Of a stretch of DNA of 64,000 nt, positions 8,661 to 62,330 are shown piece by piece. Numbering within the stretch: the stretch's first letter is position 1; every line of letters starts with the position of its first letter. The position numbers and the translations under genes are program-made. Source of the stretch: Sipunculus nudus (lineage: Eukaryota; Annelida; Sipuncula; Golfingiida; Sipunculidae); assembly GCA_026874595.1 (NCBI GenBank), contig CM049307.1, positions 80,576,643 through 80,640,642 of the forward strand, read 5' to 3'. The notes under the pieces were generated by a model. The model saw only the letters and a program-made list of their open reading frames with translations, was not told the DNA's origin and did no database searches.

Positions 8661-8668
8661 GATCCACC

Positions 8669-8801
8669 ATGGTACACTACAAGTTGATATACTTAGACCT
8701 GAATGCTCGCGCAGAAGTCACGCGCATGCTTTTCTTCTTAGGAGGAAAGGCATTTGAGGACATCCGGTTTGATATTTCGGAAATCCCAAAGTATAAGCCG
8801 T
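8669..8801 (+). CDS. GST coding exon 1
   Basis: Encodes residues 1-44 plus one base of codon 45. It begins at CCACCATGG, 7 bp after an acceptor-like AG, and ends at donor CCGT|GTAAGT. It contains Tyr8 and the following helix (RAEVTRMLFFLGG). An in-frame upstream ATG at 8633 would precede the acceptor AG and is not used in this model. Confidence 0.9.
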
Positions 8802-10088
8802 GTAAGTGTAATACAATGCGTGGTATATTCATCTTTCTACAAGCAAGCAATGATTAAGTCGAGTCCACAATTTCCGAGTCTAAGATAAAGTCCGAGTCCA
8901 GGCCTTTCGAGTCCGAGTCCAAGTCCGAGTCTTTGAGGTTCCAGTCCAAGTCGACATTCTTCGAATCTGAGCCATGTGGAACCCGAGTCCAAGTACTTGT
9001 CCAATTCAGATCATTATAAAAGTTTAAATGGAAATTGGACATGCTTTTACTATAATGGTTGATTACATTTATAGCTCCGGAAGCTGAGCCAAGCTTGGTT
9101 TATATAATGATATTATTTTGTAATGTCTGTTTGTAGTCCGCACATGTATATAAGTGTGTATCATATATGAGTTTTTCGCTATTAGACTCGAGGCGGACCC
9201 TCGATGATTTCTGGAGTCCTTACTTCTACGTGCAAGTCCTGGACCCTCGAGTCCATATCGGAGTCCGAGTACCTCCTAAGTGGACTCGAGTTCGGACTCT
9301 AGTCTAAGTCCGGACTCGAATCCTACATCCTGAATTTTTGGTATATACGATTGGTTTCATTTTCTGTGAAGAGGACTTGTCACCTATAGAGGTACCCTAC
9401 TAGCCTATAGAGGTACGGGTGACATAGATTTGCTCTAATATATCTGAACCACAGGTTGAGACTTCTTGAGTATATGTGCTTGCTTGGGGCGAGCTCACGT
9501 GTACACCATGGTGTGTAGAGGCACGGCGATGTTTTTCTAGATGATTCCTGTAACGTGTGCTTACCGTGTAAATGTATTTTTCTTCGAATATTCGAGAAAA
9601 TGAAGCTTCTCGGCTTGAGGTGAAAAGGTATATAAAGGGCTGTGTTTTAGAGCCGGGAGAGCAGCAGAGAAGATTCCAGCGGACGCAGAAGCGTGTGTCA
9701 GTTTCTGGGACCTTATCCGACGAGTGCGGCAATTATAGATTTTCTTTTGGACTTCAGTTTACTTTCTGGATTGTTACAAGAGCTTTACACTGTACTGTCA
9801 TTCTCCAAGAGTATTCATTTAAAGAACTTAGTTGTGACGGTGGTGGTATCCAGATACTGTGTACTTTGTGTATTTTACTGTGTGATTGTATTGATTTGTT
9901 GTTATACAGCTGTTTTACTGTATAATTGTATTGATTTAGTGTTTTGTTATGGTAGGGTTGTTTTACGAATAAATTATGGTTATTTGTTAATAAAAAAACA
10001 CTGACTTCTTTATTCATTCCCCTAGAAATTTCACGCTGCCTAGTGTTACAGAAACTGATTTTTTTTATCTCCATTACAAATACATATA

Positions 10089-10161
<73 letters not shown>

Positions 10162-11656
10162 TTGTAGTATATAAGTACTGAATGAATCCAACAGTGCTCT
10201 ATTAGCCTTACATGCTAATTTTTACATGGATAGTCAAATACGGTCTGTGTTATTTTTATGTATTATTTTTATATATTTGTTTATTTATTTGTATGTAATG
10301 AATTGCAAGTCAACAACAAATTCCTGAAACTGAAGGCTAATAAATGTTATCTTATCAATTAGCTTATCTTATCTGATGCACAGAATTTATAACGAAAATG
10401 TTTATTTACATATTATCACGTGTTTTAATGGTGTCGCAATAGTCAGATGAAGTGAAATATTAAGGAACGGTTTGTGATATTATGTAACTACAAGCCGAAG
10501 CACTCAGCCATGCTCAGGTGGGAGTGTATGGGGATTTATATGATTATGTCTGCATTTGGAAATGAGCTCTGACCTTTTGATTAGTCTTTGTGTCTTGGGG
10601 AACGTTATGGTTTGGACTTTTTCCAGACAAATATTACACCTTCATGCACTGGGGAGCTTTCTCGGGACTGCGTACTTGAGGACCCGCCAGTGTATTAAAT
10701 ATTGGGTGTTTGTTTTCTGTTTGAGCCAAATGAACTTTGTGAGTTCCGAGTCTTTTTCATACTTAAAGTGGCTGAATGATTTCTTGTGGTACCTGTTGCG
10801 GGGTTTAAAGTCGGTGCCGGCAAGTCCGATGTAGGTTTTTCTAAGGCGCTGACGTCACAACCCAAACCTTGGCAAAACGCAATCGAGCGGATTCAATTTC
10901 CGTAAAAAAACAGTGGCCCCTTCAAGGAGCATGCCTACAAGCTGGCATTATGCATCGGGCTTGCCTGCATGCACTGACACCTGACCATGGCTGAGTGCTT
11001 CGGCACGTTATTACATAATTTCATCAACCGTTCCTAAACAGTTCACATCTGACGATGGCGACAACATGAAAACACGTGTTAATGTGTAACTGAACATTTT
11101 CGTTATAATTTCTTTATATAGATATATAAGGATAGGTCATGGGCCTGCAGGTGGCACTGTCAATTGAATGAAGATAAAGTGTCCATATGATAACAATGAT
11201 ATCTTATTATTAAGCCATTCTTATGGTTTATTTATTGTTATTACTATTGTTGTTATTTTCTAGTTGATGTTTTAATTAACTGTAAAGCAAGTTTATTATT
11301 ATTAAAGTAACATTCATCATATTCATATATTAATCTATTTCCCTTAACATGTATTTTCACACTATTATTTTTAGCCGCCCCTTTTGGACAGTTTCCAGTT
11401 TTGGAAGTAGATGGAGTAAAGATGTGTCAGAGTCACTCCATCAACCGTTATCTGGCAAACCAGTTTGGTAAGTCATGTTTTGTACATAATTAGGCCCGAT
11501 ATAGGGTACACCCCTCATGCGGCGGTTTAACAGTCGTTCCAGGACTCCTTCGTTTTAACCGCTGCTTCGTATAGCAAGCTTCTCCAGATTGACCAAACTA
11601 TGAACTCAATAAATAATCATGAGCAGTGCATTTGCGAGTAACCAATCAAGTATTTT

Positions 11657-20995: not shown

Positions 20996-21440
20996 ATATC
21001 CTGAGAAGAAAACATGGCCAAGCCACTCTCCAGTTTTCCTATATTTTTATTGTTATGAAATCATCGATACAGCCACGTGAGATATAATGCGCGGCTCTCC
21101 TGTTTTCCTATATTCTAATTATTATGAAAACATTGATACAGCCACGTGAGATATACTGCGCGACTGTCCAGTTTTCCTGTATTCGTACTGGTATTAAAAC
21201 ATTGATAAAGCTAAGTGAGATATAATGCGCGACTCCCCAGTTTTTCTATTTTCCTATTGTTACTAAAAAACAATTTAACAGCTACGACAGATATTGTGCG
21301 TGACTCTCCAGTTTTTCTACTTTGCTATTGTAATGAAATCAAGGTTACAGCTACGTGAGATATAATGCGCGACTCTCCAGTTTTCCTATAGTCTTATTGT
21401 TATGAAAACAAAGCTGCAGCTATGTGAGATATGTTACATA
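20996..21440. repeat. 69-bp tandem repeat array, about six units
   Basis: Units start near 21036, 21104, 21173, 21241, 21312 and 21380, preceded by a partial unit. Each has TTTTCCTAT, TATTGTTATGAAAACA, CAGC(C/T)ACGTGAGATATAATG and GCGCGACTCTCCAG, with about 10-20% divergence. The second half of the array (from 21209) recurs at 32690, so the left edge of the large duplication falls inside this array. Confidence 0.85.
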
Positions 21441-24203
21441 ACCCTTATGTCTTGATAATCCTTTACTTATCATCATCTAGTGGAGTTCTTAAATCATGAT
21501 GCATCAATAATGGCCTTGGTTATCAGTATGGATATTTTAAACCGCATCTATACAACTTAAAGTAATTAATTAAAGTAGATACTTCTCGGATCCGTTGCAA
21601 GGCCACAAAGGTATGCTAGGAGCATATTTAAGAAGATGCCAAGCATAACGCAGCTGAAACACAGCTCTGCTTCATCTCACTATTTTTACCTTTACACTGA
21701 TCAGTTGTCTTTTATAGTATGGCTCTTAATACGAAGCAATGCCTGGAAAAAACAGTTTAAGGTTATCATAGCTGTAATATTTATAAGCTTGTTTTTAATA
21801 AAATGGGGTATGACAGTATATTTCCATGGGTAATCTTTTTTAGAAGTGGGGTGCTGTGAAATATTTAACTTCTGAATTGGCGCCCGCCTTATTTTGAAAT
21901 ATATATATAACAGGGATAATGAGAATTTATGATAAACTAGAAATCTTCATTCTAAAGAATGCAAGCAGGAGAGTGGGAATGGTAGCTTGGTGACATGTAT
22001 ATAAATAACAAAATCACAGCACTGGGGCATGTTGTCTCCTTTCTCCAAGCAGAGATGAAATGGGAGAGAACAAATCAATAAACTGTCATCACTGAGTGGA
22101 GGTGTGAGACTTGGATCTGGTCAGACAGTCTCGCTTTAGATCTTTACAATGGAAGATAAAAAGACGTAGATTTTAATTAGTTATGGATGCTCATGCTGAG
22201 TAAGGGTGCTTATTTGTACAAACCATTCATGTTACAAACAAATCAACACTCGTAACCACATACTGAGGGTGTGAAGCATGGAAAACTCTTCACATCTTTG
22301 ATGTCTATTGCCATGAAATTAAATAAAGTTTTCTCTGTCTAGCGCGTACATTTGCTAAATGACAGGCTCCTACAGTCTGAAAATCTACAAAACGGCATAA
22401 CATAAATGTCATTTAGCATTTTATAAAGATTAATGTAATATACAATTAAGTAAACGAGGGAAATGTTTGCTGTTAAGATATTCTGTGAAGTGACAAATTA
22501 TATTTATGGTTCGAAATTTTCAACAAGCATTAAGATATCAGATACAAGACAAAGGCTTTGACTGGCCCCTTGCTGTGTTATAGTCCATATCATTATCTAT
22601 CTTCACGTTTTTTGGGGAAAATATCTATTACAAATAAAATGTTAAAATTATTCATGATTCAAGGGTTGTAGGATCCATTCTGCTGCAGGCCTGAGTGAAA
22701 AATAATGTCAAACAACTGATTTTATACTTGTAAGACATAAATGGTCTAAAATGTGACAAAAAAAGATTGCACTGTTAAATGTGTTATATTTACCAATTAA
22801 GAACTGAGAAACAAACCTGCTGTTTGAGATAATGATGTAATTTTCCCTACAAAGCCCTCTCTTGACCATATTTATAGAAATTCTTCCATGTAGTAAGGTT
22901 GTGTCCAGCTCTGCATTAGTTTAAGTAATCACCCATGTTTGATCAACGTAAATAATGCAATAGACCCCTAAAGTAAATACTTGTTTTTACTTCTTATAAC
23001 ATATAACTTAACACAAAGTTGGCAGAACAATGTATGTAACTTGAGGCTGAATTGATTTTTTTTAATATTCTGAAATCTGCTATTACACAAAAGGAAACAA
23101 TTATAGACACACGGCTGGGATCGACTTTAGGTAGGGTATAATTTTTCTTTTATTATTTGAGTTTAAAGCAGCAAGGTATTTAGTTATATAACTTGTTCAA
23201 ATGCTAAAGTAATTAAATGATCAAATGTATTATTACAAATCACCTATAAAATGAAATTCTTTAGTTATAATGGATTTCTTAAGTAACAAATACAATATGT
23301 AAATAGCATATACATGCATAGGGAATCAGAAACTGCAGAAAAATATGGAATCATGCAGTGTGTTCCTATGACCTTTATTAGGTGAGATCTCGAGTATATG
23401 GATGCCCACTTGACCGTTACAGATGAAGGCCTAATTCAGTGTCAGTGATCCCTGCACTCACATGAAGAGTGCTGACATTTTCGCTGGGCCGAGCACTCCC
23501 CGGACACCTGTGTGTAGTACTGATATTTTGGACCCGCTCGCCATATTCACAGGGCAGGTGTAAAAAGATTCACCCGATGAACCGTCATATAAGCATTACC
23601 ATAAACATTCCAAATCAAGACCATAGATTTCAGTATTACCGTAAAGAATGTAATTATGAGGTTAATAAAAAGGTCACTCCTTGTCAGCCCAGTCCTTCTT
23701 TAAGATCTTTTATACATATTGCATCACATATATCAATCCCGATCAAACCTTCCAGTGTTCTTCACAGTGTCAGGGTGCACCAAAACAGTGCATAGGTGAG
23801 CTCTAAAATAAAGCTGGTCCCTAATACCAGTGAATAGCCCTGGCTTTGATAGTGACACAGACATTGCCCTACTCACAATGGTATAGAACACCTTGAATTA
23901 AATAAAAACCACTATTGATTCAGATTACGTCAAATATTTTATCAGAATCAGTTCAAATTAACCAGCAAACCAAATGCAAGAAAAACATAAAACCTGACCG
24001 CCTGGCGGAGGTATTATTATGGGGAACATAAGGATCATTCCTTGTTCAGAAATTTGTGATTCAATCATCATAATTGATTTTAAATGTAATATGAAAGTGG
24101 TCACAGGCAAAAAAAAAAAACGACACAGCAACACAGGGAAGGAATGTCTCCATTCAACAAATCCATATAAGGGTTATTTGACTATAACTATAACTCTGGA
24201 ACC
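21441..24203. other. Copy A non-coding segment
   Basis: No exon recognised. Open frames at 21636-21833 and 23469-23795 are also open in copy B, but with only a few percent divergence that is expected by chance. Neither shows a known domain or clear splice signals. Confidence 0.4.
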
Positions 24204-24440
24204 GGCTTCTGTGGCTCAGGGGTAGAGCATAGAACTCACAGCCGGGAGATAGTGGGTTTGAATCTCAGCCGAAGAGGTGAGATTTTTCACGAGCGGCCCC
24301 CACCCAGGGTGAGCGCTCTGTAGGCTTAATGGGAAGGCCGAACCGGTGTGTTTCACTCACAAACGGTGTGTGCCTTAGGGGGTTCCTTGGTGGTTTAACC
24401 CAGCAATGGGGACAATAAATGGGGCCTGCAGGTGCAGCAG
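24204..24440 (+). mobile_element. tRNA-derived SINE, copy A
   Basis: The first 70 bp form a tRNA-like head: box A TGGCTCAGGGGTAGAGC and box B GGGTTTGAATC, ending with AGCC that complements the starting GGCT. A non-tRNA body follows (GTGAGCGCTCTGTAGGCTTA, CAAACGGTGTGTGCC) with an AATAAA-containing tail near 24415. Internal pol III boxes plus an unrelated body define a SINE rather than a tRNA gene. The 3' boundary is approximate. It was present before the segmental duplication. Confidence 0.75.
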
Positions 24441-25234
24441 TCACTGGGCCTTGTTAACACCAGGATATTAAATGAAAGGTAGCATGTGATAATGCCCTGA
24501 ACAGCATGTTATCCGAAACTGGAATCGAATTCTGCAGATGTATATATATACTTAGAGTTGAGCTAGCATTGAAAATGGAGGGGGTTTACCTCCAACCCAA
24601 AACAATATTAAAAAAATGGCAATGGACCTCCACAGGGTAAAAAAATAGCTGCATGTCTCAGATGGAAAAGGAGCTTTTGAATTATAAACATATGATGGTG
24701 ATCAAGATCACCTCAAAACTTTAATGGTGGTGTTACAAAATCTGTTTATAACTTTGTGCATAAAATTGTACTAGACAAACCAAAAATAATATACCTCTCA
24801 CCTCCTTTAATAGGTATAATTAGTGACCTGTGGAGACTATGAGTGGTTAGCGTGGATGCTGACTGCAAAAAAAAAAAAATATTGAAAAAATGAAATCATA
24901 ATTAATAATACCCCTTTATCTTAAATCACCTGTATTTTTATCTGTACAAAAAAAATATAATTAACAAACCATAGAATTTGTTTGTTGTCGAACATGTATT
25001 GAATCAAGCAACACCATTATGTGGAACACATTTTGTGTTTGTGGCTGCTATTGCTAATTTTTGTAGGGCAACTAAAAATTCATGTAGGGTAAGTAAAAGC
25101 TATATGTTACTTGCTTGACTGGGCAAGTACTTCCAAATGTTTATGTCGAGCCCTGCATATAATTTTGAATCTATTTGATGAAGTTTATCAATTAAACTAA
25201 ACTATATGTACAACGTGTATTTTCTCTATTTCAG

Positions 25235-25416
25235 GCCGGAAAGGTCCACTTTGGCTACATCTATGGAATCGGAGTGGTCTGCTGCCTGGGCCATGTACGC
25301 TCTGCTCAAGTTGATGAGTTAGGCTCAGGTCTCTGCAGGCTGCATCGTCAGCACACTTGGCCAATGTCTCCTTCCCATGGTCTCTTGTCATTCACAACTG
25401 TACTCATTTCGCTCCG
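25235..25416 (+). CDS. Candidate spliced exon of unknown product, copy A
   Basis: A 182-bp segment has a textbook acceptor (TTTTCTCTATTTCAG) and donor (CTCCG|GTAAGT) and higher GC than its surroundings. One frame is open throughout (AGKVHFGYIYGIGVVCCLGH and on); the other two contain stops. No family was recognised. It could be an upstream exon of the kringle gene 2.7 kb downstream in the same orientation, an exon of another gene, or part of a non-coding RNA. It is almost identical in copy B. Confidence 0.4.
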
Positions 25417-28095
25417 GTAAGTGTAGTTCACAAAAATTGACTAGTTCTTGAATGTTTTTTTGATTGTGTATTATTACTGAATTAATGATATTACCCAAAT
25501 GTCTTGGCTGCATTTTTAATTTTGTTTTCTCCATGTAATTCTGATAAGGATAGGTCCTTCACTTCTCTGTGTTGCACTGTCTATTGAAATAGGGTGTAGG
25601 TATCGATTGGATAAGCATGATATAGTATTATAATGCTTTCTGGATTCCAGGTTTAGGATTAATACAGCAGTCATAACCAGTGAATTTACATCGTCATTAT
25701 TGTTAGGCGTTAGAGTGAATCTCTAAAACTCTAATGGAATATTTCACCAATTTGCTTTTTGATTCTCAGGAGGTTTTGAACAATGGGACCATCCCTACAC
25801 AATAAAATGCCTAAACCTCTATGTCCTCTGCCATTTGTTATGTATTATTGAACATTGAGAAGTTCAGCAAAGACATAGACTAACTAGTTCCATAGATGAT
25901 ATTTTTATATCAATTTTCAAATCACTGAAATTAACTCAGGAAAGAATGTCTGGCCAAAAGCTGATTGTGGTGTTGGCAACTGTATCTTAAATAATTATTC
26001 AGGCCAAAGCCAAACTTATTCTGTCGGCTCAGGGACCGAAAATCATCGCAGCAAGCATTCTACGTGACCATTCAAACAACATAAATTTAATCCATGCTCA
26101 GTGATAACTTTATTAAATAAAATTCTACGTGATTAATACCTGTTATGACTTCTCTAAAGATACAGAGGCAAGAGCAGTAATCAACAACTTTAATAATTAA
26201 GACTTTATGCTCATGAAAAAAAGTGATCCATGAAAAATAGGACAAATTTCAGGTTCACAGTTGTTTTGTTGTAGTGTGGCATTGTTTATTAGTTAGTGTA
26301 GGTAGTGTCATTAAGGCAAAAGACCGTACTTTCTTTTAAAATGTTATTTAATAACATATTTTATTCAGAATAGGTCAACCTCTCTACCTTCTGGGAAATA
26401 ATATATATAAATATGTGAAATGAAAATGAAAATGAAAGTGAAATGAAAATGAGCGAAGATGTTATCAAATGAAATTTAAGGATAAAGATTATAATTTAAC
26501 TGTTGATGGTGCTGATACCATAGATTAACCTTTAAATCAACTGAAAATGAATTGGTCAAAATAATTTTTAACATAAACTTTATAAATACTCCAATTTTAG
26601 ACTATTTTGTTTCAGATATTGTACAATTTTGCCTGGAAAAACAAAAATGAAAGAAATTTCAGGGCAGGGGGTATTGGTGTTAGTGTCACATTTTCTTCAT
26701 TATATTGAGGAAAGTCAAAAGCATGCCAACTTTAGGCTTAAATGTTGTATATTCACCAGATTTGTTTGCTTCTAAGCTCTGTGTGTAAATTGATTAATCA
26801 GTTTGATACATTATTTGTCAGGATTATCTAATTTTGTTAATATAAACAGATATTTAACATCTTATATAATCAACTGATTACAGCAAAATAAAGTAAGACT
26901 TGTCTGAAATATGTTAGGATGCAGCATATTGGAGTGACCTCTGGTGGAAGTAACTTGCACTTGTCACAAATGTAGTTAACCAAGTCTACACTAGAGGTCT
27001 GTCTCTTCTGAAATCAAATTTAAACTTCTGACATGAGAATATTGCCTCTCATTAACTTCAGTGTGGAACACGGCATCTAGTTGTGAAGAATTTGTCCAAA
27101 CATATAAAGTTCATGTGTTTGGGTAAATACAGGAAAAATAAACAAAATAACGCAGTCATTACTAATAGTTAAAAGCATGCATCCCCTGTATTTTGCCACA
27201 AGATATTTTTTATGTAAACTTGTAATATCACTATGGGCAGCACCTGATCAACTGTTTATTTGAGTCCACAGGAGAAGCCACACGCAGTTCATGCAATGGG
27301 ACTTAAGAAACTTAAGATGTAGTGCTAAACATGCTGTACAATTGTATTTCATTAAGCAGGGAAATGAGTGATTTGTGTGGACCAAATATCAGAGACGAAA
27401 ATAACTGTGCCCATATCGTCCTTAATATAACATCCTTTGTTTATACTTAGATTGTTACCAGTTAAATACATCAACTTACATCTAAGAAAATGAGATAAAT
27501 GATGTGACACTGCTGTCTCAAAATGCAGGTTCAAATGCTTAAAATTATATGTGAAATATGTTTTGTCCTGGAACTTGGTATGCTCATTGGTGACGTATAC
27601 CGTATTTCTTCTTTATTTAAAACCGCGGTTTAAAATGGAAACTCGAAACTAGGTGTTTATTCTTAACATGCACAGTGTGGTCTTAAAAGTGGGCAAATAA
27701 ATATATTTCAATAATAGATAATTTCCATGAGCATGGGCAATGCGTGTAATGCACGAGGGTCGCCTGCTGTGTCCGTGTCCAGTGGGCCAGCATTGCCGGT
27801 ATTGTGAACGAAATGAGATTAATACTACATCAGCTTTTAGGACACAGCAGGCTTCCTGTCCTTGTTATTATTGATATAAAATATCTTGCATTATTTATAT
27901 AACAGACCCGAATACTTAGGGCCAATCGTTGCCATAACCTTTTTTTTCACTTAAACTACACCGCCGATAAGGTTCTGACCGAAATTCTGATCACTAAAGA
28001 ATATATTAAACTGTCGCCTCAAAATGTATCTGGTATCTCCTGCCTTAATAAAATATTGATAACAGATATTGCTCAATATGAACATATTCTATTAG

Positions 28096-28350
28096 GATGT
28101 CAGGCAACCAGCCGAGGATACGAGTATGCAGGGAAATTAAACAAGACTGTAGTGGGGTCATACTTATGAAGTGGACAGATGCGCTCCCTGCAGGGGACTA
28201 CAGGCTTGCATCTCGATTGTACCCTGATGCCAGTGCCGAGGAAGCTGCTAATTACTGCTGGAATCCTAGCGGCTCCCCTTCTGGTCCTTGGTGCTTTACC
28301 AGAGGGAACAGTTATACCACAGACATCCAATGAAACACACACACGATGTG
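28096..28350 (+). pseudogene. Kringle-domain exon with a frame break, copy A
   Basis: The exon lies between TATTAG and ATGTG|GTAAGG (255 nt). Frame 1 opens with GCQATSRGYEYAGKLNKTVV, the start of a kringle (first Cys, GYEYAG, NKT), then meets a stop. A second frame continues with KWTDALPAGDYRLASRLYPD and NYCWNPSGSPSGPWCFT, the kringle signature 'NYCxNPxGxPxGPWC(Y/F)T'. The frames join only with a shift just before KWTDA, where the second kringle cysteine should be. The expected C-terminal CDxPxC is also not in frame. Kringles are disulphide-bonded binding modules of secreted proteases and receptors. The same shift occurs in copy B, so the damage predates the duplication. A noncanonical but expressed domain is less likely. 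Confidence 0.75.
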
Positions 28351-28879
28351 GTAAGGATCATAAAAAGCATGCCTTTTATCAACCAGGTCATGTCATACCC
28401 TTTACCTGTCAAACCTAACACCATGGGGATAATGTATGTTTTTTGTATTCTTCTAGAGAGTTGGGCCGTATGGTCCAGTTCTAAGACTGGCAACAAAATA
28501 AAAATGACAGGCCTGTCAAACTTTAATACCTTTATGTTACCTTGATCCATTGCCATGCTGTGCTTTGGCTTAAGAAACAGTTTAAGTTCAATGGGTTTTG
28601 GTGCAGAGATCACCAGACGGTGTACATAGCATATACTCGAAGACTAAAGTGGAAAGGTTGGGTACATGTGCTTCTGGTTTCCCGGATTGAATGGGATAAA
28701 AAGGGAATCTGGTCAACTCACATTTTGTTAACTCCTAGTCGATATACCTATTTATATATCGCTGCTGTTCCTTGCTTAAATCTCCGCTGGAGCTGCCCAG
28801 TTCACAACTAATTAATAAATCTCAAGGGCCTCCTACAAGGACGTTGGCATGGCTGGTTATGAAAATCTTTAGGAATCTT

Positions 28880-28883
<4 letters not shown>

Positions 28884-28929
<46 letters not shown>
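28884..28929. repeat. (AT)n microsatellite at the 3' end of the copy A LINE
   Basis: About 46 bp of alternating AT, directly beyond the 3' side of the minus-strand LINE fragment. Confidence 0.9.
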
Positions 28930-28931
<2 letters not shown>

Positions 28932-28979
28932 AGTTATTGAATATATTTGAATTAAATTGTACCTTAACTGGAATGTAAG

Positions 28980-30254
28980 GCAGAAGGCAAGAAGATATTG
29001 TGAATACTCAGTAAACCAACGTCACACCCGCCACCGTGTCTCAGGTTCCGAACGAGGATGCCTTACCGAATATAAACAGAGGAAGAGAAATATTTTATTA
29101 GACATAAATGTAATGCATTGCAAAATTTATATTCAAATTATCAGTTATTTCTTTATTTTATATTTATGCAAGACTTATGTCATAGTGTGTCCTATCAATT
29201 TGATGAAATTCTATCATTTAACTTTGAATTTTATTAGTTTTGCTCATATTTGATTAACTTTTAGTACTGATATAACCGTTTGTTTTCTATTTTGATATGT
29301 CTTGAGAAATTCTTGTGTTACAAAGGTAACAGTTCATTTATGACATTTATCTTAATATGTTTTTATAAAATATTGTTTGTGTACCAAATGAAGCCTTGAC
29401 TGTTCGTGAAATATCAGTTATTTGGTCGGTCTTATTTATGATTTTTATGTTAACGAGACTGTTTTCAATCATCTAAGTTCTGGTTTTATTTGTAAATCGT
29501 ATGATTTGAGAATTGTGATATTTAGTCTGAAAATGTCATTTGTTTAAAGTTGTTAAGATTTGGAAAACGGTTCAGTGTGGGCATTGTATTTGTAATATTT
29601 CTTATAGCTTTTAGGGGGTTTGTCTAATCTATTTATTTCAAAGCTGCATACAAGTATTCCATAGCTTATATGGGATGAGTGTATTACAAAGAATCTGTCA
29701 TGTATGCCCTGGTAGAAAATGTTTTTTTATTTAATCATTTTCCAAATGTATGTTTAATGTTTAGCAAATTTGTTTGTGCGAGTTTGTCATTCCATATGAT
29801 CATCCAATGTTATGCTACGAAAGAGACCTCTGAAGGTGATTATATATTTTAAGTTCAAGGGTTTTGTCTTATATGTACTTATTTTATTTGTGAAATGTAA
29901 TTAATTTTGTATTGTTTGCATTTAATTGTTTTTGCATTTAACAAGTTATGTACATTGTTTGATTCATTGTTGATGTCGTCATAGTCTTTTTGTTCATTGT
30001 AATTTGTTAAGGGGTTGCATAGTGTTGTATAATCTGCATATAGAATAAACTTAAAGAAATTACTTCAGTGTTGAATGTCATTCCTGTGTATCAGATGCAG
30101 TAAGGGAAGTAAAATCAATTCTTGTGGTACCCAGTTAATTATTGTAAATTTGACGCACTTGTGATCTCTAAATACAACAAATCGTTTCCCCCAACGTAGT
30201 GTTTTTCATGGATACCAAACAGATCAAGTGTTTGTAAACTTTGTCATGATATAA
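28980..30254 (-). mobile_element. Decayed LINE reverse transcriptase, copy A
   Basis: On the minus strand the RT core is readable across stops: RDHKCVKFT, then NWVPQ...LLPLLHL, then FKFILYADYTTLCNPLT at about 30010-30050, then thumb and C-terminal pieces (WKMIK, HFLPGHT, HPI*AMEYMYAALK). The 'VPQGS-x-L-PLL ... YADD' order marks a non-LTR reverse transcriptase of the jockey/CR1/RTE-like group. In this copy the second catalytic Asp of YADD is Tyr; copy B keeps YADD. Many stops and frameshifts make it dead. Confidence 0.75.
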
Positions 30255-32495: not shown

Positions 32496-35400
32496 TGTAT
32501 AAAGTGTTAACCTTGAACCATTGATGGCAGATTAATAACCTGATTTATAATTGGATATTTTTATTTTATTATTTGTTCATGTTTTGTTAAAATGACAATT
32601 TGATATTTATAGTCTATTACTATGTTAATGTTCCTTTTTTTTGGGAACTTTAGGCCTGAGGCCTTTTCCTGAATAAACTTATTGAGATAAGTGAGATATA
32701 ATGCGCGACTCCCCAGTTTTTCTATTTTCTTATTGTTACTAAAAAAAACAATTTAACAGCTACGACAGATATTGTGCGTGTCTCTCCAGTTTTTCTACTT
32801 TGCTATTGTAATGAAAACAAGGTTACAGCTACGTGAGATATAATGCGCGATTCTCCAGTTTTCCTATAGTCTTATTGTTATGAAAACAAAGCTGCAGCTA
32901 TGTGAGATATGTTACATTACCCTTATGTCTTGATAATCCTTTACTTATCATCATCTAGTGGAGTTCTTAAATCATGATGCATCAATAATGGCCTTGGTTA
33001 TCAGTATGGATATTTTAAACCGCATCTACAACTTAAAGTAATTACTTAAAGTAGATACTTCTCAGATCCGTTGCAAGGCCACAAAGGTATGTTAGGAGCA
33101 TATTTAAGAAGATGCCAAGCATAACGCAGCTGAAACACAGCTCTCCTTCATCTCACTATTTTTACCTTTACACTGATCAGTTGTCTTTTATAGTATGGCT
33201 CTTAATACGAAGCAATGCCTGGAAAAAACAGTTTAAGGTTATCATAGCTGTAATATTTATAAGCTTGTTTTTAATAAAATGGGGTATGACAGTATATTTC
33301 CATGGGTAATCTTTTTTAGAAGTGGGGTTCTGTGAAATATTTAACTTCTGAATTGGCGCCCGCCTTATTTTGATATATATATATATATATAACAGCGATA
33401 ATGAGAATTTATGATAAACTAGAAATCTTCATTCTAAAGAATGCAAGCAGGAGAGTGGGAATGGTAGCTTGGTGACATGTATATAAATAACAAAATCACA
33501 GCACTGGGGCATGTTGTCTCCTTTCTCCAAGCAGAGACGAAATGGGAGAGAACAAATCCATAAACTGTCATCACTGAGTGGAGGTGTGAGACTTGGAACT
33601 GGTCAGACAGTCTCGCTTTAGATCTTTACAATGGAAGATAAAAAGACGTAGATTTTAATTAGTTATGGATGCTCATGCTGAGTAAGGGTGCTTATTTGTA
33701 CAAACCATTCATGTTACAAACAAATCAACACTCGTAACCACATACTGAGGGTGTGAAGCATGGAAAACTCTTCACATCTATGATTTCTATTGCCATGAAA
33801 TTAAATAAAGTTTTCTCTGTCTAGCGAGTACATTTGCTAAATGACAGGCTCCTACAGTTTGAAAATCTACAAAAGGGCATAACATAAATGTCATTTAGCA
33901 TTTTATAAAGATTAATGTAATATACAATTAAGTAAACGAGGGAAATGTTTGCTGTTAAGATATTCTGTGAAGTGACAAATTATATTTATGGTTCGAAATT
34001 TTCCACAAGCATTAAGATATCAGATACAAGACAGAGGCTTTGACTGGCCCCTTGCTGTGTTATAGTCCATATCATTATCTATCTTCACGTTTTTTGGGGA
34101 AAATATCTATTACAAATAAAATGTTAAAATTATTCATGATTCAAAGGTTGTAGGATCCATTCTGCTGCAGGCCTGAGTGAAAAATAATGTCAAACAACTG
34201 ATTTTATACTTGTAAGACATAAATGGTCTAAAATGTGACAAAAAAAGTTTGCACTGTTAAATGTGTTATATTTACCAATTAAGAACTGAGAAACAAACCT
34301 GCTGTTTGAGATAATGATGTTATTTTCCCTACAAAGCCCTCTCTTGACCATATTTATAGAAATTCTTCCATGTAGTAAGGTTGTGTCCAGCTCTGCATTA
34401 GTTTAAGTTATCACCCATGTTTGATCAACGTAAATAATGCAATAGACCCCTAAAGTAAATACTTGTTTTTACTTCTTATAACATATAACTTAACACAAAG
34501 TTGGCAGAACAATGTATATAACTTGAGGCTGAATTGATTTTTTTTAATATTCTGTAATCTGCTATTACACAAAAGGAAACAATTATAGACACACGGCTGG
34601 GATCGACTTTAGGTAGGGTATAATTTTTCTTTTATTATTTGAGTTTAACGCAGCAAGGTATTTAGTTACATAACTTGTTCAAATGCTAAAGTAATTAAAT
34701 GATCAAATGTATTATTACAAATCACCTATAAAATGAAATTCTTTAGTTATAATGGATGTCTTAAGTAACAAATACAATATGTAAATAGCATATACATGCA
34801 TAGGGAATCAGAAACTGCAGAAAAATATGGAATCATGCAGTGTGTTCCTATGACCTTTATTAGGTGAGATCTCGAGTATATGGATGCCCACTTGACCGTT
34901 ACAGATGAAGGCCTAATTCAGTGTCAGTGATCCCTGCACTCACATGAAGAGTGCTGACATTTTCGCTGGGCCGAGCGCTCCCCGGACACCTGTGTGTAGT
35001 ACTGATATTTTGGACCCGCTCGCCATATTCACAGAGCAGGTGTAAAAAGATTCAACCGATGAACCGTCATATAAGCATTACCATAAACATTCCAAATCAA
35101 GACCATAGATTTCAGTATTACCGTAAAGAATGTAATTATGAGGTTAATAAAAAGGTCACTCCTTGTCAGCCCAGTCCTTCTTTAAGATCTTTTATACATA
35201 TTGCATCACATATATCAATCCCGATCAAACCTTCCAGTGTTCTTCACAGTGTCAGGGTGCACCAAAACAGTGCATAGCTGAGCTCTAAAATAAAGCTGGT
35301 CACTAATACCAGTGAATAGCCCTGGCTTTTGATAGTGACACAGACATTGCCCTACTCACAATGGCATAGAACACCTTGAATTAAATAAAAACCACTATTG

Positions 35401-35684
35401 ATTCAGATTACGTCAAATATTTTATCAGAATCAGTTCAAATTAACCAGCAAACCAAGGGGCAAGAAAAACATAAAACCTGACCGCCTGGCGGAGGTATTA
35501 TTATTGGGAACATTAGGATCATTCCTTGTTCAGAAATTTGTGATTCAATCATCATTATTGATTTTAAATGTAATATGAAAGTGGTCACAGGCAAAAAAAA
35601 ACTACACAGCAACACAGGGAAGGAATGTCTCCATTCAACAAATCCATATAAGGGTTATTTGACTATAACAATAACTCTGGAACC

Positions 35685-35919
35685 GGCTTCTGTGGCTCAG
35701 GTGTAGACCATAGAACTCACAGCCGGGAGATAGTGGGTTCGAATCTCAGCCGAAGAGGTGAGATTTTTCACGAGCGGCCCCCACCCAGGGTGAGCGCTCT
35801 GTAGGCTTAATGGGAAGGCCGAACCGGTGTGTTTCACTCACAAACGGTGTGTGCCTTAGGGGGTCCCTTGGTGGTATGACCCAGCAATGGGGACAATAAA
35901 TGGGGCCTGCAGGTGCAGT
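35685..35919 (+). mobile_element. tRNA-derived SINE, copy B
   Basis: Duplicate of 24204-24440. Box B reads GGGTTCGAATC, closer to the tRNA consensus than copy A, while box A is damaged (GGTGTAGACC for GGGGTAGAGC). Confidence 0.75.
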
Positions 35920-36696
35920 AGTCACTAGGCCTGGTTAACACCAGGATATAAAATGAAAGGTAGCATGTGATAATGCCCTGAACATCATGTAATCCGAAAC
36001 TGGAATCGAGTTCTGCAGATGTATATATACTTAGAGTAGAGCTAGCATTAAAAATGGAGGGGGTTACCGCCAACCCAAAACAATATTAAAAAAATGGCAA
36101 TGGACCTCCACAGGGTAAAAAAATAGCTGCATGTCTCAGATGGAAAAGAAGCTTTTGAATGATGGTGATCGAGATTACCTCAAAACTTTAATGGTGGTGT
36201 TACAAAATCTGTTTATAACTTTGTGCATAAAATTGTACTAGACAAACCAAAAATAATATACCTCTCAACTCCTTTAATAGGTATAATTAGTGACCTATGG
36301 AGACTATGAGTGGTGAGCGTGGATGCTGACTGCAAAAAAAATTATTGAAAAAATGAAATCATAATTAATAATACCCCTTTATGTTAAATCACCTGTATTT
36401 TTATCTGTACAAAAAAAATATAATTAACAAACCATAGAATTTGTTGTTGTCGAACATGTATTGAATCAAGCAACACCATTATGTGGAACACATTTTGTGT
36501 TTGTGGCTGCTATTGCTAATTTTTGTAGGGCAACTAAAAATTCATGTAGGGTAAGTAAAAGCTATATGTTACTTGCTTGACTGGGCAAGTACTTCCAAAT
36601 GTTTATGTCGAGCCCTGCATATAATTTTGAATCTATTTGATGAAGTTTATCAATTAAACTAAATTATATGTACAACGTGTATTTTCTCTATTTCAG

Positions 36697-36878
36697 GCCG
36701 GAAAGGTCCACTTTGGCTACATCTATGGAATCGGAGTGGTCTGCTGCCTGGGCCATGTACGCTCTGCTCAAGTTGATGAGTTAGGCTCAGGTCTCTGCAG
36801 GCTGCATCGTCAGCACACTTGGCCAATGTCTCCTTCCCATGGTCTCTTGTCATTCACAGCTGTACTCATTTCGCTCCG
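36697..36878 (+). CDS. Candidate spliced exon of unknown product, copy B
   Basis: Duplicate of 25235-25416 with about one base difference (a conservative change near the 3' end), both splice sites intact and the same open frame. The exon appears less diverged than the flanking introns. Confidence 0.4.
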
Positions 36879-39561
36879 GTAAGTGTAGTTCACAAAAATT
36901 GACTAGTTCTTGAATGTTTTTTTGATTGTGTATTATTACTGAATTAATAATATTACCCAAATGTCTTGGCTGCATTTTTAATTTTGTTTTCTCCATGTAA
37001 TTCTGATAAGGATAGGTCCTTCACTTCTTTGTGTTGAACTGTCTATTGAAATAGGGTGTAGGTATCCATTGGATAAGCATGATATAGTATTATAATGCTG
37101 TCTGGATTCCAGGTTTATATGCAAGGGTTAGGATTAATACAGCAGTCATAACCAGTGAATCTACATCGTCATTGTTGTTAGGCGTTAGAGAGAATCTCTA
37201 AAACTCTAATGGAATATTTCACCAATTTGCTTTTTGATTCTCAGGAGGTTTTGAACAATGGGACCGTCCCTACACAATTAAATGCCTAAACCTCTATGTC
37301 CTCTGCCATTTGTTATGTATTATTGAACATTGAGAAGTTCAGCAAAGACATAGACTAACTAGTTCCATAGATGATATTTTTATATAAATTTTCAAATCAC
37401 TGAAATTAACTCAGGAAAGAATGTCTGGCCAAAAGCTGATTGTGGTGTTGGCAACTGTATCTTAAATAATTATTCAGGCCAAAGCCAAACTTATTCTGTC
37501 GGCTCAGGAACCGAAAATCATCGCAGCAAGCATTCTACGTGACCATTCAAACAACATAAATTTAATCCATGTTAAGTGATAACTTTATTAGTTAAAATTC
37601 TACGTGATTAATACCTTTTATGACTTCTCTAAAGATACAGAGGCAAGAGCAGTAATCAACAACTTTAATAATTAAGACTTTATGCTCATAAAAAAAAGTG
37701 ATCCATGAAAAATAGGACATATTTCAGGTTCACAGTTGTTTTGTTGTAGTGTGGCATTGTTTATTAGTTAGTGTAGGTAGTGTCATTAAGGCAAAAGACA
37801 GTACTTTCTTTCAAAATGTTATTTAATAACATATTTTATTCAGAATAGGTCAACCTCTCTACCTTCTGGGAAATAATATATATAAATATGTGAAATGAAA
37901 ATGAAAATGAAAGTGAAATGAAAATGAGCGAAGATGTTATCAAATGAAATTTAAGGATAAAGATTATAATTTAACTGTTGATGGTGCTGATACCATAGCT
38001 TAACCTTTAAATCAACTGAAAATGAATTGGTCAAAATAATTTTTAACATGAACTTTATAAATACTCCAATTTTAGACTATTTTGTTTCAGATATTGTACA
38101 ATTTTGCCTGGAAAAACAAAAATGAAAAAAATTTCAGGGCAGGGGGTATTGGTGTTAGTGTCACATTTTCTTCATTATATTGAGGAAAGTCAAAAGCATG
38201 CCAACTTTAGGCTTAAATGTTGTAGATTCACCAGATTTGTATGCTTCTAAGCTCTGTGTGTAAATTGATTAATCAGTTTGATACATTATTTGTCAGGATT
38301 ATCTAATTTTTTAATATAAACAGATATTTAACATCTTATATAATCAACTGATTACAGCAAAATAAAGTAAGACTTGTCTGAAATATGTTAGGAGCATATT
38401 GGAGTGACCTCTGATGGAAGTAACTTGCACTTGTCACAAATGTTGTTAACAAAGTCTACACCAGAGGTCTGTCTCTTCTGAACTCAAATTAAAACTTCTG
38501 ACATGAGAATATTGCCTCTCATTAACTTCAGTGTGGAACACGGCATCTAGTTGTGAAGAATTTGTCCAAACATGTAAAGTGTGTTTGGGTAAATACAGGA
38601 AAAATAAACAAAATAACGCAGTCATTAATATTAGTTAAAAGCATGCATCCCTGTATTTTGCCACAAGATATTTTTTTATGTAAACTTGTAATATCACTAT
38701 GGGCAGCACCTGATCAACTGTTTATTTGAGTCCACAGGAGAAGCCACACGCAGTTCATGCAATGGGGCTAAACAAACTTAAGATGTAGTGCTAAACATGC
38801 TGTACAATTGTATTTCATTAAGCAGGGAAATGAGTGATTTGTGTGGACCAAATATCAGAGACGAAAATAACTGTGCCCATATCGTCCTTAATATATCATC
38901 CTTTGTTTATACTTAAATTGTTACCAGGTTAATACATCAACTTACATCTAAGAAAATCAGATAAATGATGTGACACTGCAGTCTCAAAACGCAGGTTCAA
39001 ATGCTTAAAATTATATGTGAAATATGTTTTGTCCTGGAACTTGGTATGCTCATTGGTGATGTATACCGTATTTCTTCTTTATTTTTAACCGCGGTTTAAA
39101 ATGGAAACTTGAAACTAGGTGTTTATTTTTAACAGGCACAGTGTGGTCTTAAATGTGGGCAAATACATATATTTCAATAATAGATAATTTCCATGAGCAT
39201 GGGCAATGCGTGTAATGCACGAGGGTCGTCTGCTGTGTCCGTGTCCAGTGGGCCAGCATTGCCGGTATTGTGAACGAAATGAGATTAATACTACATCAGC
39301 TTTTAGGACACAACAGGCTTCCTGTCCTTGTTATCATTGATATAAAATATCTTGTTTTATTTATATAACAGACCCGAATACTCAGGGCCAATCGTTACCA
39401 TAACCTTTTTTTTCACTTAAACTACACCGCCGATAAGGTTCTGACCGAAATTCTGATCACTGAGGAATATATAAAACTGTCGCCTCAAAATGTATCTGGT
39501 ATGTCCTGCCTTGATAAAATATCGATAACAGATATTCGTCAATATGGACATATTCTATTAG

Positions 39562-39816
39562 GATGTCAAGCAACCAGCCGAGGATACGAGTATGCAGGGA
39601 AATTAAACAAGACTGTAGTGGGGTCATACTAATGAAGTGGACAGATGCGCTCCCTGCAGGGGACTACAGGCTTGCATCTCGATTGTACCCTGATGCCAGT
39701 GCCGATGAAGCTGCTAGTTACTGCTGGAATCCTAGCGGCTCCCCTTCTGGGCCTTGGTGCCTTACCAGAGGGAACAATTATACCACAGACATCCTATGAA
39801 ACACACACACGATGTG
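39562..39816 (+). pseudogene. Kringle-domain exon with a frame break, copy B
   Basis: Duplicate of 28096-28350: same splice sites, length and frame break before KWTDA. Here the first frame ends at TAA rather than TGA. NYC has become SYC (ASYCWNPSGSPSGPWC) and the WC is followed by LTRGN. All remaining kringle landmarks of copy A are kept. Confidence 0.75.
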
Positions 39817-40322
39817 GTAAGGATCATAGAAAGCATGCCTTTTATCAACCAGGTCATGTCATATCCTTTACCTGTCAAACCTAACACCATGGGGATAATG
39901 TATGTCTTTTGTATTTTTATAGAGAGTTGGGCCGTTTGGTCCTAAAATGACAGGCCTGTCAAACTTTGATACCTTTATGTTACCTTCACCCATTGCCTTG
40001 CTGTGCTTTGGCTTAAGGAACAGTTCAAGTTCAATGGTATTTGGTGCAGAGATCACCAGACGGTGTACATAGCATATACTCGAAGACTAAAGTGGAAAGG
40101 TTGGGTACATGTGTTTCTGGTTTCCCGGATTTAATGGGATGAAAAGGGAATCTGGTCAACTCACATTTATTTAACTCCTAGTCGATATACCCATTTATAT
40201 ATCGCTGATGTTCCTTGCTTAAATCTCCGCTGGAGCTGCCCAGTTCACAACTAATTAATAAACCTCCAGTGCCTCCTACTGGGACGTTGGCGTGGCTGGT
40301 TATGAAAATCTTTAGGAATCTT

Positions 40323-40326
<4 letters not shown>

Positions 40327-40375
<49 letters not shown>
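40327..40375. repeat. (AT)n microsatellite at the 3' end of the copy B LINE
   Basis: About 49 bp of alternating AT, the duplicate of 28884-28929 with a different length. Confidence 0.9.
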
Positions 40376-40376
<1 letters not shown>

Positions 40377-40399
40377 AGTTATTGAATATATTTGTATTA

Positions 40400-41890
40400 A
40401 ATTGTACCTTAACTGGAATGTAAGGCAGAAGGCAAGAAAATACTGCGAATGGTCAGTAAACCAACGTTACACCCGCCACTGTGTCTCAGGGTTCAAACGA
40501 GAATGCCTTATCGAATATAAAGAGAGGAAGATAAATATTTTATATGACATGAATGTAATGCATTATAATTTATATTCAAATTATCGGTTATTTTTGTTAT
40601 TTTATATTTATGCAGACTTATGTCATAGTGTGTCCTATCAATGTGATAAAATTCTTTCATTTTACTTAGAATTTTATTATTTGTGCTCATATTTGATTAA
40701 ATTTTAGTACTGATATAACAGTTTGATTTCTATTTTGATATGTGTTGAGAAATTCTTGTGTCACAAATGTAACAGTTCATTTTGTGACATTTATCTTTAT
40801 ATGTTTTTATTAAATATTGTTTGTGAACCAAATGAAGCCTTAACTGTTCGTGAAATATCAGTTATTTTGTCGGTCTTTTTTATGATTTTTATATTAACGA
40901 AACTGTTTTCAACCATCTAAGTTCTGGTTTTATTTGTAAATTGTATGATTTGAGAATTGTGATATTTAGTCTGAAAATGTCGTTTGTTTAAAGTTGTTAA
41001 GATTCGGAAAACGGTTCAATGTGGACATTGTATTTGGTGTCTGTACTATTTCTTATAGCATCTAGGGGGTTTGTCTAATCTATTTATTTCAAAGCTGCAT
41101 ACATGTATTCCATAGCTTATATGGGATGAGTGTATTACAAAAAAATCTTTCATGTATGCCCTGGTAGAAAATGTTTTAATTTTATCATTTTCCAAATGTA
41201 TGTTAAATGTTTAGCAAATTTGTTTGTGCGAGTTTGTCATTCCATATGTTCGTTCAATGTTATGCCACGAAAGAGGTGTTTCATATATTTTAAGTTCAAG
41301 GGTTTTGTCTTGTATGTACTTATTTTATTTGTGAAATGTAATGAATTTTGTTTTGTTTACTTTTTTTTGCATTTAACTATTTATGTACATAATTTAATTC
41401 ATTGTTGATGTTGTCTTTTTATTTATTGTAATTTGTTAAGGGGTTGCATAATGTTGTATCATCTGCATATAGAATAAACTTAAAGAAATTACTTCATTGT
41501 TGAATGTCATTCCTGAATATCATATGCAGTAAGGGAAGTAAAATGGATCCTTGTGGTACCCAGTTAGTTATTGTATATTTGACGCACTTGTGATCTCTAA
41601 ATACAACAAATGGTTCGTCGGAATATTTTCCCCCAACGTAGTGTTTTTCGTCGATTCCAAACAGATCAAGTGTTTGTATAACTTTGTCATGATATAATCT
41701 TTGAATAAATCGATGTATGTTGTGAGAGGTGTTTCCATAATCAATTTCTGTATTTAGTCATTCAACTATTTCAAAGACTGAAACCACATTGGTCCTTGTA
41801 TAGCAATTTACATTTGAAGATATTCATATAATTGGTTGTAGATTTTATATTTTTAGGGTAACTACTTACCATGAGGCGTTGCCAAAACAG
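40400..41890 (-). mobile_element. Decayed LINE reverse transcriptase, copy B (longer)
   Basis: Same element as 28980-30254 but with about 200 bp more of the 5' part: YNQLYEYL-like, QCGFS, then HRFIQRLYHDKVIQTLDLFG, VFRDHKCVKYTITNWVPQGS and FKFILYADDTTLC (about 41440-41480). The intact YADD and VPQGS motifs confirm a non-LTR reverse transcriptase. Several stops remain. Confidence 0.8.
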
Positions 41891-60306: not shown

Positions 60307-61785
60307 TATTACTATATAATATTACTGAATCTGGATCATATGACAACCAAAATCTTTCTGAATTCCCTGAAAATTTCATAAGTCTCCTTTTATGATTACG
60401 TAAGTAATGTTGTGAACAAAAATACACACACAAGCACAGACGTGGTGATCGCATACTATCTTGATCGGGGTGGGGGGAATAATTAAATTATTTTATCGAG
60501 GCACTGTCTCTATTATATGCGCGTAATTAAACACAGAAATTGTTTTCCAGGTAAGGCCGGATCAATTGCATTGTATTCAAATTATGTACGTTTGGGTCTA
60601 ATAACAGATTAAACTGCGCAGTTTGATCATTTATAAATGGTAATCGCCTTGTTAACTGTCACTGCACGACATCTAACTTTTTATATAACTTCTCATATAA
60701 ATATTAAAAGCGTGACTTGAACCTTTAAAATACTATGGTCGAAGAAGACATTCATTTATATCTGATTGAAGACCACAGTTGCTCGGACCAAACCTCTGCA
60801 CTCGCACGGGTACATCGTTTCATTTTAAATCCAGTCTAATCCAGGTAATATACATGTTTACAGGGCAGTTCTGTGTATAGATTGAACAAGTGCGTATTAG
60901 GTTCTCCTAAGAACCAATAAGCTGTTGATATATGATAGGGTAACACAGGCTGTCGAGTAATTAATTTGCAACTTTTAAAGTATTCTAGTTTTAATTATGT
61001 TTTAACAAAAGATTCTGTTTTATATCACGGTCTAACTTTAGAATCAAAATACACAATTTGCACAAAAATGCACAATTTGTGTAAAATTTCTTAATGAACA
61101 AGATATTACTAATTCGTTGCTAACAGCATTTAAATTGGTTGGGATATGAGTAGAACCCTTGTGGTTCGTCCCTTACCAGGCTATTATTTGTTGTTTAATT
61201 ATAGTTTTCATTCAGAGTATATATTGTTGGATAATTCCTTAGGTTTAACACTTAGCTCGGCAAAGGACTAAATCAAATTTATAATGTGATATCTGACATC
61301 TAGTACAACCATTATGTGTTTGCTGTGCTAATAATACGCCAATTGGGAGATTCTTGTTTAAAGTGATTATTCATTTTTACTCCTAAAAAAATCAGTTCAA
61401 TACCTTGTTTTACTAAAAACCGATTTTGCAAATGAAAATGCATCAACTGACTTGACCATATAAAATCTCAATGTTCTATCATATCATGTTTTCCATATTT
61501 CATTTCCGTAAGATCGTTGCAAAATTTAAGGTTCATTTAGGAATAAGCTCTTCCCTTGTAGTTTAAGTAAACATATTCCAAATGTGTTTGTTGTGTGAAC
61601 GGCATCCACATCTAAGACTTTGCCCTTATTTGATTGGCTCTTATACAGGTGACATCATGGACTGAACAACTCAGATCTAGCAATGCATGTTGTTTTTAAG
61701 CTCTCCTAAAAATTTTGGACGGTCAGTTGCAGAAATACTGTGCTTTTTCTGAGATCTAGAATTTTTAGTCACATACATATATACA
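60307..61785. other. Non-coding stretch
   Basis: Apart from the 60325-60430 block related to 11884-12020, nothing is recognised. Confidence 0.35.
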
Positions 61786-62085
61786 CTACACGAAAAACAC
61801 GTCAGTGTGTCTTACCCATTGCCACTCTGAGTTTCATTTGTTCTTTGTGCGGTTCTCTGCAGGAACGGCAACGGACATGTACAACTCAACAAGCGAAATG
61901 AACTAATCTCAAAGTGTCGTTATTCAGAAAATCCACCGAACCGCGCAAAGAACAAATGACCACTAAGAATCTCTGTGACGAGTTCTCAGTCTTCTGATGA
62001 TCACCAAAGGGTAAAAACAGGTAAACTTTCTGGCGTGAAACTCAATGTTGCAATGGGTAAGACACACTGACGTTTTTACACGTAG
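61786..62085. mobile_element. MITE-like inverted-repeat element
   Basis: Outer arms CACGTCAGTGTGTCTTACCC (61798) and GGGTAAGACACACTGACG (62055) are inverted, and ATTGC follows and precedes them respectively. Inner arms CATTTGTTCTTTGTGCGGTT and AACCGCGCAAAGAACAAATG are also inverted. No coding region. The 300-bp element sits about 250 bp upstream of the methyltransferase exon 1. A target duplication was not clear. Confidence 0.7.
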
Positions 62086-62330
62086 CATATAGCTCTACGT
62101 CAATCGTATAGAGCAATTAACCGCTTCTACTGGGTCTATCATGATAATTTATATGTGTGTGTGTGCGCGCTGCGTCCGAAAGAATACGATAACACTTAAT
62201 TCAGGATCAGTATGACCGGGATTTGATTTTTAGAAAATTGTCACAGTTTCTTGACTTTTCAATAGGTCAATTACGTTTCACTTCCCATTACATGACACAG
62301 ACACACTCCGTTGTCTTTCATTCTGTGCAG

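Follow-up and report, generated by a model that had tools for sequence, protein, structure and literature searches.

The DNA that interrupts an intron of a GST detoxification gene of Sipunculus nudus is a decayed, internally rearranged and truncated copy of a Penelope-like element (PLE), a kind of retroelement common in animals, with inverted pseudo-LTRs that each carry a hammerhead ribozyme motif. Sister copies in the same genome conserve the hammerhead and related PLE families pair it alike, whereas the copy described here has nearly lost stem II in one arm and has lost core residues in the other. Taken as a whole, we consider it highly probable that this is an old, rearranged PLE copy whose decayed hammerheads are unlikely to cut the GST pre-mRNA now. 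Positions below are those of the window, by which we mean the whole stretch of 64,000 nucleotides that was analysed.

The initial annotation had placed the element in a GST intron, with its hammerhead-like motif on the sense strand of that gene. Plus-strand GST exons indeed lie on both sides of the element, and the right-arm hammerhead is on the same strand. The features of the region are as follows:

About 8663-8806, plus strand: N-terminal exon of the GST gene, lying upstream of the element and located with three paralogous exons of this genome as tblastn queries (best E 1.5e-11).
10084-10160, no strand: (TA)n tract, the presumed insertion target, with TA runs at 10084-10093 and 10095-10160.
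10161-10218, minus strand: PLE tail, the optional 3' extension past the pseudo-LTR, with an 85-92% match to sister-copy tails.
10219-10372, no strand assigned: foreign insert between the tail and the left arm, with no match in the sister copies compared.
10373-10530, minus strand: left pseudo-LTR, an inverted-repeat arm, in the element sense.
10397-10461, minus strand: left-arm hammerhead with a broken core, G8 and G12 being changed, and a 3-nt insert in stem I.
10507-10839, minus strand: C-terminal half of the PLE endonuclease region, interrupted by stops and frame shifts and located by tblastn with the ORF of sister locus L021.
10837-10872 and 10874-10951, plus strand: two coding pieces from just upstream, inverted and in swapped order, located by blastn against L021 and L016.
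10968-11119, plus strand: right pseudo-LTR, an inverted-repeat arm.
11037-11098, plus strand: right-arm hammerhead with intact core and stem II nearly lost; the expected cut lies between 11081 and 11082.
11377-11460 (limits of the profile match), plus strand: GST exon downstream of the element (Pfam GST_N, 24.9 bits against a cut-off of 20.9).

The gene belongs to a local GST cluster, as eight GST_N matches fall on both strands of G000:C2:80566714-80813679, some of them below the cut-off and one with a stop. Elsewhere in the window, an inverted repeat of about 520 bp (1-518 and 9477-9970, 77% identical) flanks the GST N-terminal exon region, and a direct duplication of about 9 kb (21209-30254 and 32685-41697) has 95.6% identity.

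Several parts of the earlier description of the element can be kept and others need revision. The inverted terminal repeats are present, with 82.5% identity over 149 bp between 10382-10530 and 10968-11113, and as the two arms are thus 17.5% apart we read the insertion as old. The extent first given, 10389 to 11106, is too small, since the tail on the left arm reaches leftward to about 10,160 and the (TA)n tract to about 10,084; the right arm has no tail. The AATTT motif noted at both flanks does occur there, as the outer ends of the inverted-repeat arms, but it is not a target duplication. A minus-strand GIY-YIG frame had also been described, and this is correct for the YIG half and the C-terminus, as the DNA between 10373 and 10839 matches that portion of the sister copies on the minus strand with stops and frame shifts, but the pieces from upstream lie on the plus strand and the frame has no Pfam GIY-YIG score. 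With the L021 ORF, tblastn gives an alignment over 10507-10947 at 63.5% identity (E 8e-51), of which the upstream portion matches poorly. The description of the element as a truncated PLE member is supported by the sister copies, which share its arms, coding region and tail. The inner end of the foreign insert resembles by eye a run of TTATC units and may be where a different retroelement ends.

A DNA search of the same genome (1.43 Gb) found at least 123 matching pieces. As 40 of the 506 first-look candidates were scored in this search, and 150 of 470,530 places in the protein search described below, all copy numbers are lower bounds. The sister set comprises 38 loci with 45 arms besides the two in the window, one short arm (L044) having been dropped, and the alignment A1 holds 41 of these 47 arms (39 sister arms and both window arms); L014_1048m, L017_1017m, L027, L033 and L035_958m were left out as duplicates or near-duplicates and L042 as truncated. 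Several sister loci extend into long ORFs that include this C-terminal protein; the ORF of L021, for instance, has 528 codons. Some of the sister terminal repeats abut (TA)n directly, and others are separated from it by a tail of about 66 bp, which is present in 18 of the 40 sister arms with a readable end (five of the 45 lack one). A TA run of at least 14 lies within 200 bp of 36 of these 40 arms, compared with 4.35% of 2000 stretches drawn at random from the window. At all seven sister loci with two readable inverted arms, each pair being taken as a single insertion, exactly one arm carries the tail. Published Penelope copies likewise sit at AT-rich targets and have inverted pseudo-LTRs, one of which may be tailed (PMC3846280). 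Pseudo-LTRs with an optional tail are seen here in both the window and the sisters, and insertion into AT-rich sequence in the sister arms.

Membership of the PLEs is firm on this anatomy and is not formally proven on the protein. Neither the window frame nor the sister ORFs reach the Pfam GIY-YIG threshold, and the sister ORFs obtain no name above threshold from Pfam, NCBIfam or PDB. The GIY and YIG motifs of the endonuclease region were read by eye. A profile comparison of the sister ORFs with the genome's Pfam-recognised GIY-YIG proteins gives a weak alignment of the GIY/YIG/R..H stretch (E 0.0017 with a probability of 15.5%, and E 0.011 with 3.8%). For the reverse transcriptase, which is absent from the window copy, the sister ORFs have no Pfam or PDB match and a weak NCBIfam match to Drt3a (17.6 bits against a cut-off of 200); some motifs of the sister ORFs may be read as those of a reverse transcriptase. 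No relatives of the element protein were found in the viral_contigs or genome_contigs sets. Near-identical GIY-YIG frames of 621-637 codons were also seen on small contigs (C61, C62, C64, C65, C66, C72, C75 and C89); these look bacterial and perhaps come from a symbiont or from contamination.

The hammerhead of the right arm can be followed residue by residue. Stem I begins on its 5' side with CAGTT (11039-11043) and CACAT (11044-11048), and is followed by the core CTGACGA (11049-11055), the stem II stretch (11056-11067), GAAA (11068-11071), the stem III palindrome AACACGTGTT (11071-11080) and A 11081 (H17), after which the 3' side of stem I reads ATGTG (11082-11086), a bulged T (11087) and AACTG (11088-11092). 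Stem I has five plus five pairs across this one bulge, the palindrome is perfect, and every residue of the conserved core (C3 U4 G5 A6 N7 G8 A9, G12 A13 A14, A15.1-U16.1 and H17) is in place; the left arm, lacking G8 and G12, does not have that core. Beside a U.U mismatch, stem II of the right arm consists of G.A, G-C and C.A, so that a single one of its three pairs is standard. A descriptor that leaves stem II free matches the 64-kb window once, at this place, and matches twice in 200 dinucleotide-shuffled windows, while a descriptor demanding three stem II pairs has no match in the window.

In the sister copies the motif is much better preserved. Their consensus is a type I hammerhead in which stem I is CACAU/AUGUG extended distally past a single bulged U, the core is CUGANGA and GAAA, stem II is a U.U mismatch followed by UGC/GCA with the loop GGCA, and stem III is the 10-nt palindrome AACACGUGUU, with UA preceding the cut. 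All core positions are kept in 28 of the 41 aligned arms (27 of the 39 sister arms and one of the two in the window) and all three stem II pairs in 35 of the 39 sister arms, while a descriptor comprising the core, stems I and II and a near-palindromic stem III finds matches in 22 of the 38 sister loci. The initial annotation had recognised the order of core, stem I and palindromic stem III in the right arm, and the poor pairing of its stem II, and both observations agree with ours; it had asked whether sister copies keep the CTGANGA and GAAA cores and whether they conserve stem II, and on these figures they do. The repaired stem II that it offered, TGG...CCA, is not the form of the family, and its suggestion that the ribozyme may be active at present finds no support, with stem II of the right arm nearly gone and the left arm short of two core residues. 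Pair counting detects no covariation within the family above that in shuffled alignments, as is expected from near-identical copies.

To look beyond the family we used as protein query a divergent PLE endonuclease region with 37% identity to that of the window (E 2.9e-9), and examined the DNA downstream of 27 hand-picked loci with a descriptor comprising the core, at least three pairs in each of stems I and II, and a near-palindromic stem III. A hammerhead was found at 20 of these 27 loci, always on the sense strand, compared with one of 13,500 shuffled loci. By our own grouping on sequence the 20 loci represent seven further families, or eight with that of the window. When nine rows from families A-E are tabulated, pairs 1-4 of stem I, 2-4 of stem II and 1-4 of stem III are standard in every row but one, the exception being stem II of the window's right arm, and between these families nearly all paired positions change on both sides (pair 3 of stem II changes on one side only and pair 1 of stem III is invariant). 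The U.U mismatch at 10.1-11.1 occurs in three of the eight families (A, C and D; L070-L096), the other five having G-C. Hammerheads in other families with different stems and the same pairing lend independent support to the motif, which, as judged by these sequence comparisons, is real at the family level. It does not accompany every GIY-YIG locus of the genome, since of 17 loci that a Pfam search for GIY-YIG drew from it none has a hammerhead by either of two descriptors; several of these look like other PLEs, and some are perhaps truncated or non-PLE. A looser scan of 13 of the 17 gave one match, in L064 with a TTGAAGA core, which we found unconvincing. Two further observations concern PLE-like DNA in this genome. 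Tandem PLE copies with frames of up to about 718 codons occur at G000:C17:31677636-31690178 and G000:C1:55954985-55966071, with spacings of 2427 and 2924 bp. In the window itself, a PLE-like C-terminal peptide (61882-61938, E about 0.001) lies within a small inverted repeat (84%) at 61780-62091. A CTGATGA follows this peptide, but by eye it forms part of no complete hammerhead and was not counted.

General covariance models are of little help with this variant. No Rfam hammerhead was found in the window, in the element or in five of the 38 sister loci that were scanned, and a scan of six of the 27 related loci that passed the descriptor gave a single match, to Hammerhead_1 (15.8 bits, E 9.9); the gathering score of that model, 34, was reached in none of these sequences. 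It had been suggested that the lack of a covariance hit would refute the motif. The hit is indeed lacking, but as the Rfam models are insensitive to the variant, this refutes nothing and would reject good candidates. Our own covariance model, R1, scores the right arm at 82.3 bits and the left arm at 59.1 bits, figures that are no independent evidence because both arms were used to build it; three other R1 matches in the window (at most 15.4 bits) were taken as noise. Folding is either uninformative or unfavourable. In none of five sequences folded, including sister L010, is the minimum-energy structure a hammerhead, and for every one of the 41 arms the hammerhead has a poorer score than the minimum-energy structure; of the right-arm hammerhead, the fold prediction retains stem I and nothing else. 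As the sister minimum-energy folds are also not hammerheads, folding alone does not separate the window copy from its sisters.

Two other accounts of the DNA itself have to be considered. It might be a MITE-like or retrozyme-like non-autonomous element with inverted repeats and a hammerhead of its own, and not a PLE fragment, as would suit its short length and the inverted arms seen in the window and in some sisters, such as L012 and L035. However, arm spacing and internal junctions differ among the copies, sisters continue into long ORFs, and the reordered interior of the window copy recurs in none of the 38 sister loci; we set this reading aside because of the varying internal junctions, and regard it as very unlikely. 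That the likeness to a hammerhead is due to chance could be argued from the two matches of the weaker descriptor in 200 shuffled windows and from the missing Rfam match, but related families whose stems differ in sequence have this motif at the equivalent place, at a frequency (20 of 27) far from that in shuffled loci, and chance seems to us an extremely improbable explanation.

A further question is whether the right arm still cuts the GST pre-mRNA between 11081 and 11082, be it alone, as a dimer formed with a second transcript or with PLE protein supplied by young copies, and so affects GST expression. Its intact core, stem I of five plus five pairs, perfect palindrome and sense orientation in the intron would permit this, and the near-identity of the sister arms suggests that the family was active recently. 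Moreover, very weak stems II are known in nature. In natural hammerheads U10.1-U11.1 is found and is the best-tolerated mispair, and stem II can consist of two pairs or in one case of a single pair (PMC3088659). The U.U of the family is therefore no objection to its function, and sequence alone is insufficient to call the window copy dead. Against continued cutting are the state of stem II, with G.A and C.A in addition to U.U, the predicted folds that keep stem I only, and the divergence of the arms with no sign of constraint. The only two R1 arms of the intron are also oppositely oriented, which leaves the ribozyme without a tandem partner in the GST transcript. It may well be that the source elements were active, but with stem II lost from the right arm and core residues from the left, the two arms of this copy probably no longer cut the GST pre-mRNA; such cutting is on this evidence possible but unlikely, and we assign it a low probability. 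More speculative, and in our estimation quite improbable, is the idea that the right arm cuts the GST pre-mRNA in trans or with the protein of a young PLE copy, so that bursts of PLEs would act on those host transcripts that carry sense-strand arms in their introns; were it true, retroelement activity would be linked to host RNA processing.

We return to the old, decayed PLE copy, for which the most probable history is that a PLE inserted at a (TA)n tract in the GST intron and left inverted pseudo-LTRs, one of them tailed, each bearing a minimal type I hammerhead with a 10-nt palindromic stem III. In the source element the ribozyme would most likely have cut the element's own RNA, after the position equivalent to A11081. 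It would have done so either in a dimer of two RNAs held together by their palindromes or assisted by the protein of the element; from the anatomy and from published work, the palindromic stem III would form double hammerheads between two RNA copies. In the present copy the right arm has kept its core and lost stem II, the left arm has lost core residues, and cutting is unlikely. Eight hammerhead-bearing PLE families by our grouping, with differing stems and like pairing, thus occur in one eukaryotic genome, and with U10.1-U11.1 in three of them the set is suited to studying why a ribozyme that looks poor is retained by PLEs. The loci scanned also demonstrate that Rfam hammerhead models miss this variant, and the window copy is a case in which a ribozyme of this kind lies within a host intron in sense orientation, where after its decay it is probably harmless.

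Minimal type I hammerheads of PLEs were reportedly treated by Cervera and De la Pena in 2014 and by Lunse, Weinberg and Breaker in 2017. Hammerheads in PLEs, the weakness of their stem III and their cutting as dimers or with the aid of protein are already published, as are the U.U mismatch of hammerheads and hammerheads in introns; added here are this family, the seven related families that share its pairing and the habit of insertion at (TA)n, for none of which absence from print is claimed. The role of PLE hammerheads is called a mystery in a review (PMC7761336). As regards intronic hammerheads, that of the window resembles those in vertebrate RECK and C10orf118 in being of a mobile-element type within a host intron, but the latter are described as conserved and as cutting in vitro (PMC3088659), whereas that of the window is decayed and gives no sign of conservation. 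PAc of Anolis is an endonuclease-containing PLE that likewise has a pseudo-LTR hammerhead, AT-rich targets and a tail; according to the account of that element its ORF begins at stem II, and cutting requires the element's protein and is dispensable for insertion in vitro (PMC11167929), whereas no ORF starts after the core here. The Penelope elements of Adineta vaga share with ours the inverted pseudo-LTRs, the optional tail on one of them and the simple AT-rich targets, but their typical copy is described with two direct and one inverted pseudo-LTR and a 31-bp tail (PMC3846280), whereas the targets here are (TA)n and the tail measures about 66 bp, as judged from the inverted arms that were compared. 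The minimal hammerheads of PLEs are said in reviews to have no proper helix III and to cut perhaps as dimers (PMC6155905, PMC7761336, PMC6466107). Apart from the decay of the window copy, and from a family that we could match to no named one, the present hammerheads do not differ in kind from these as they are described there: they are of type I, lie in a pseudo-LTR in the element sense, and have a weak or palindromic stem III that would suit cutting as dimers.
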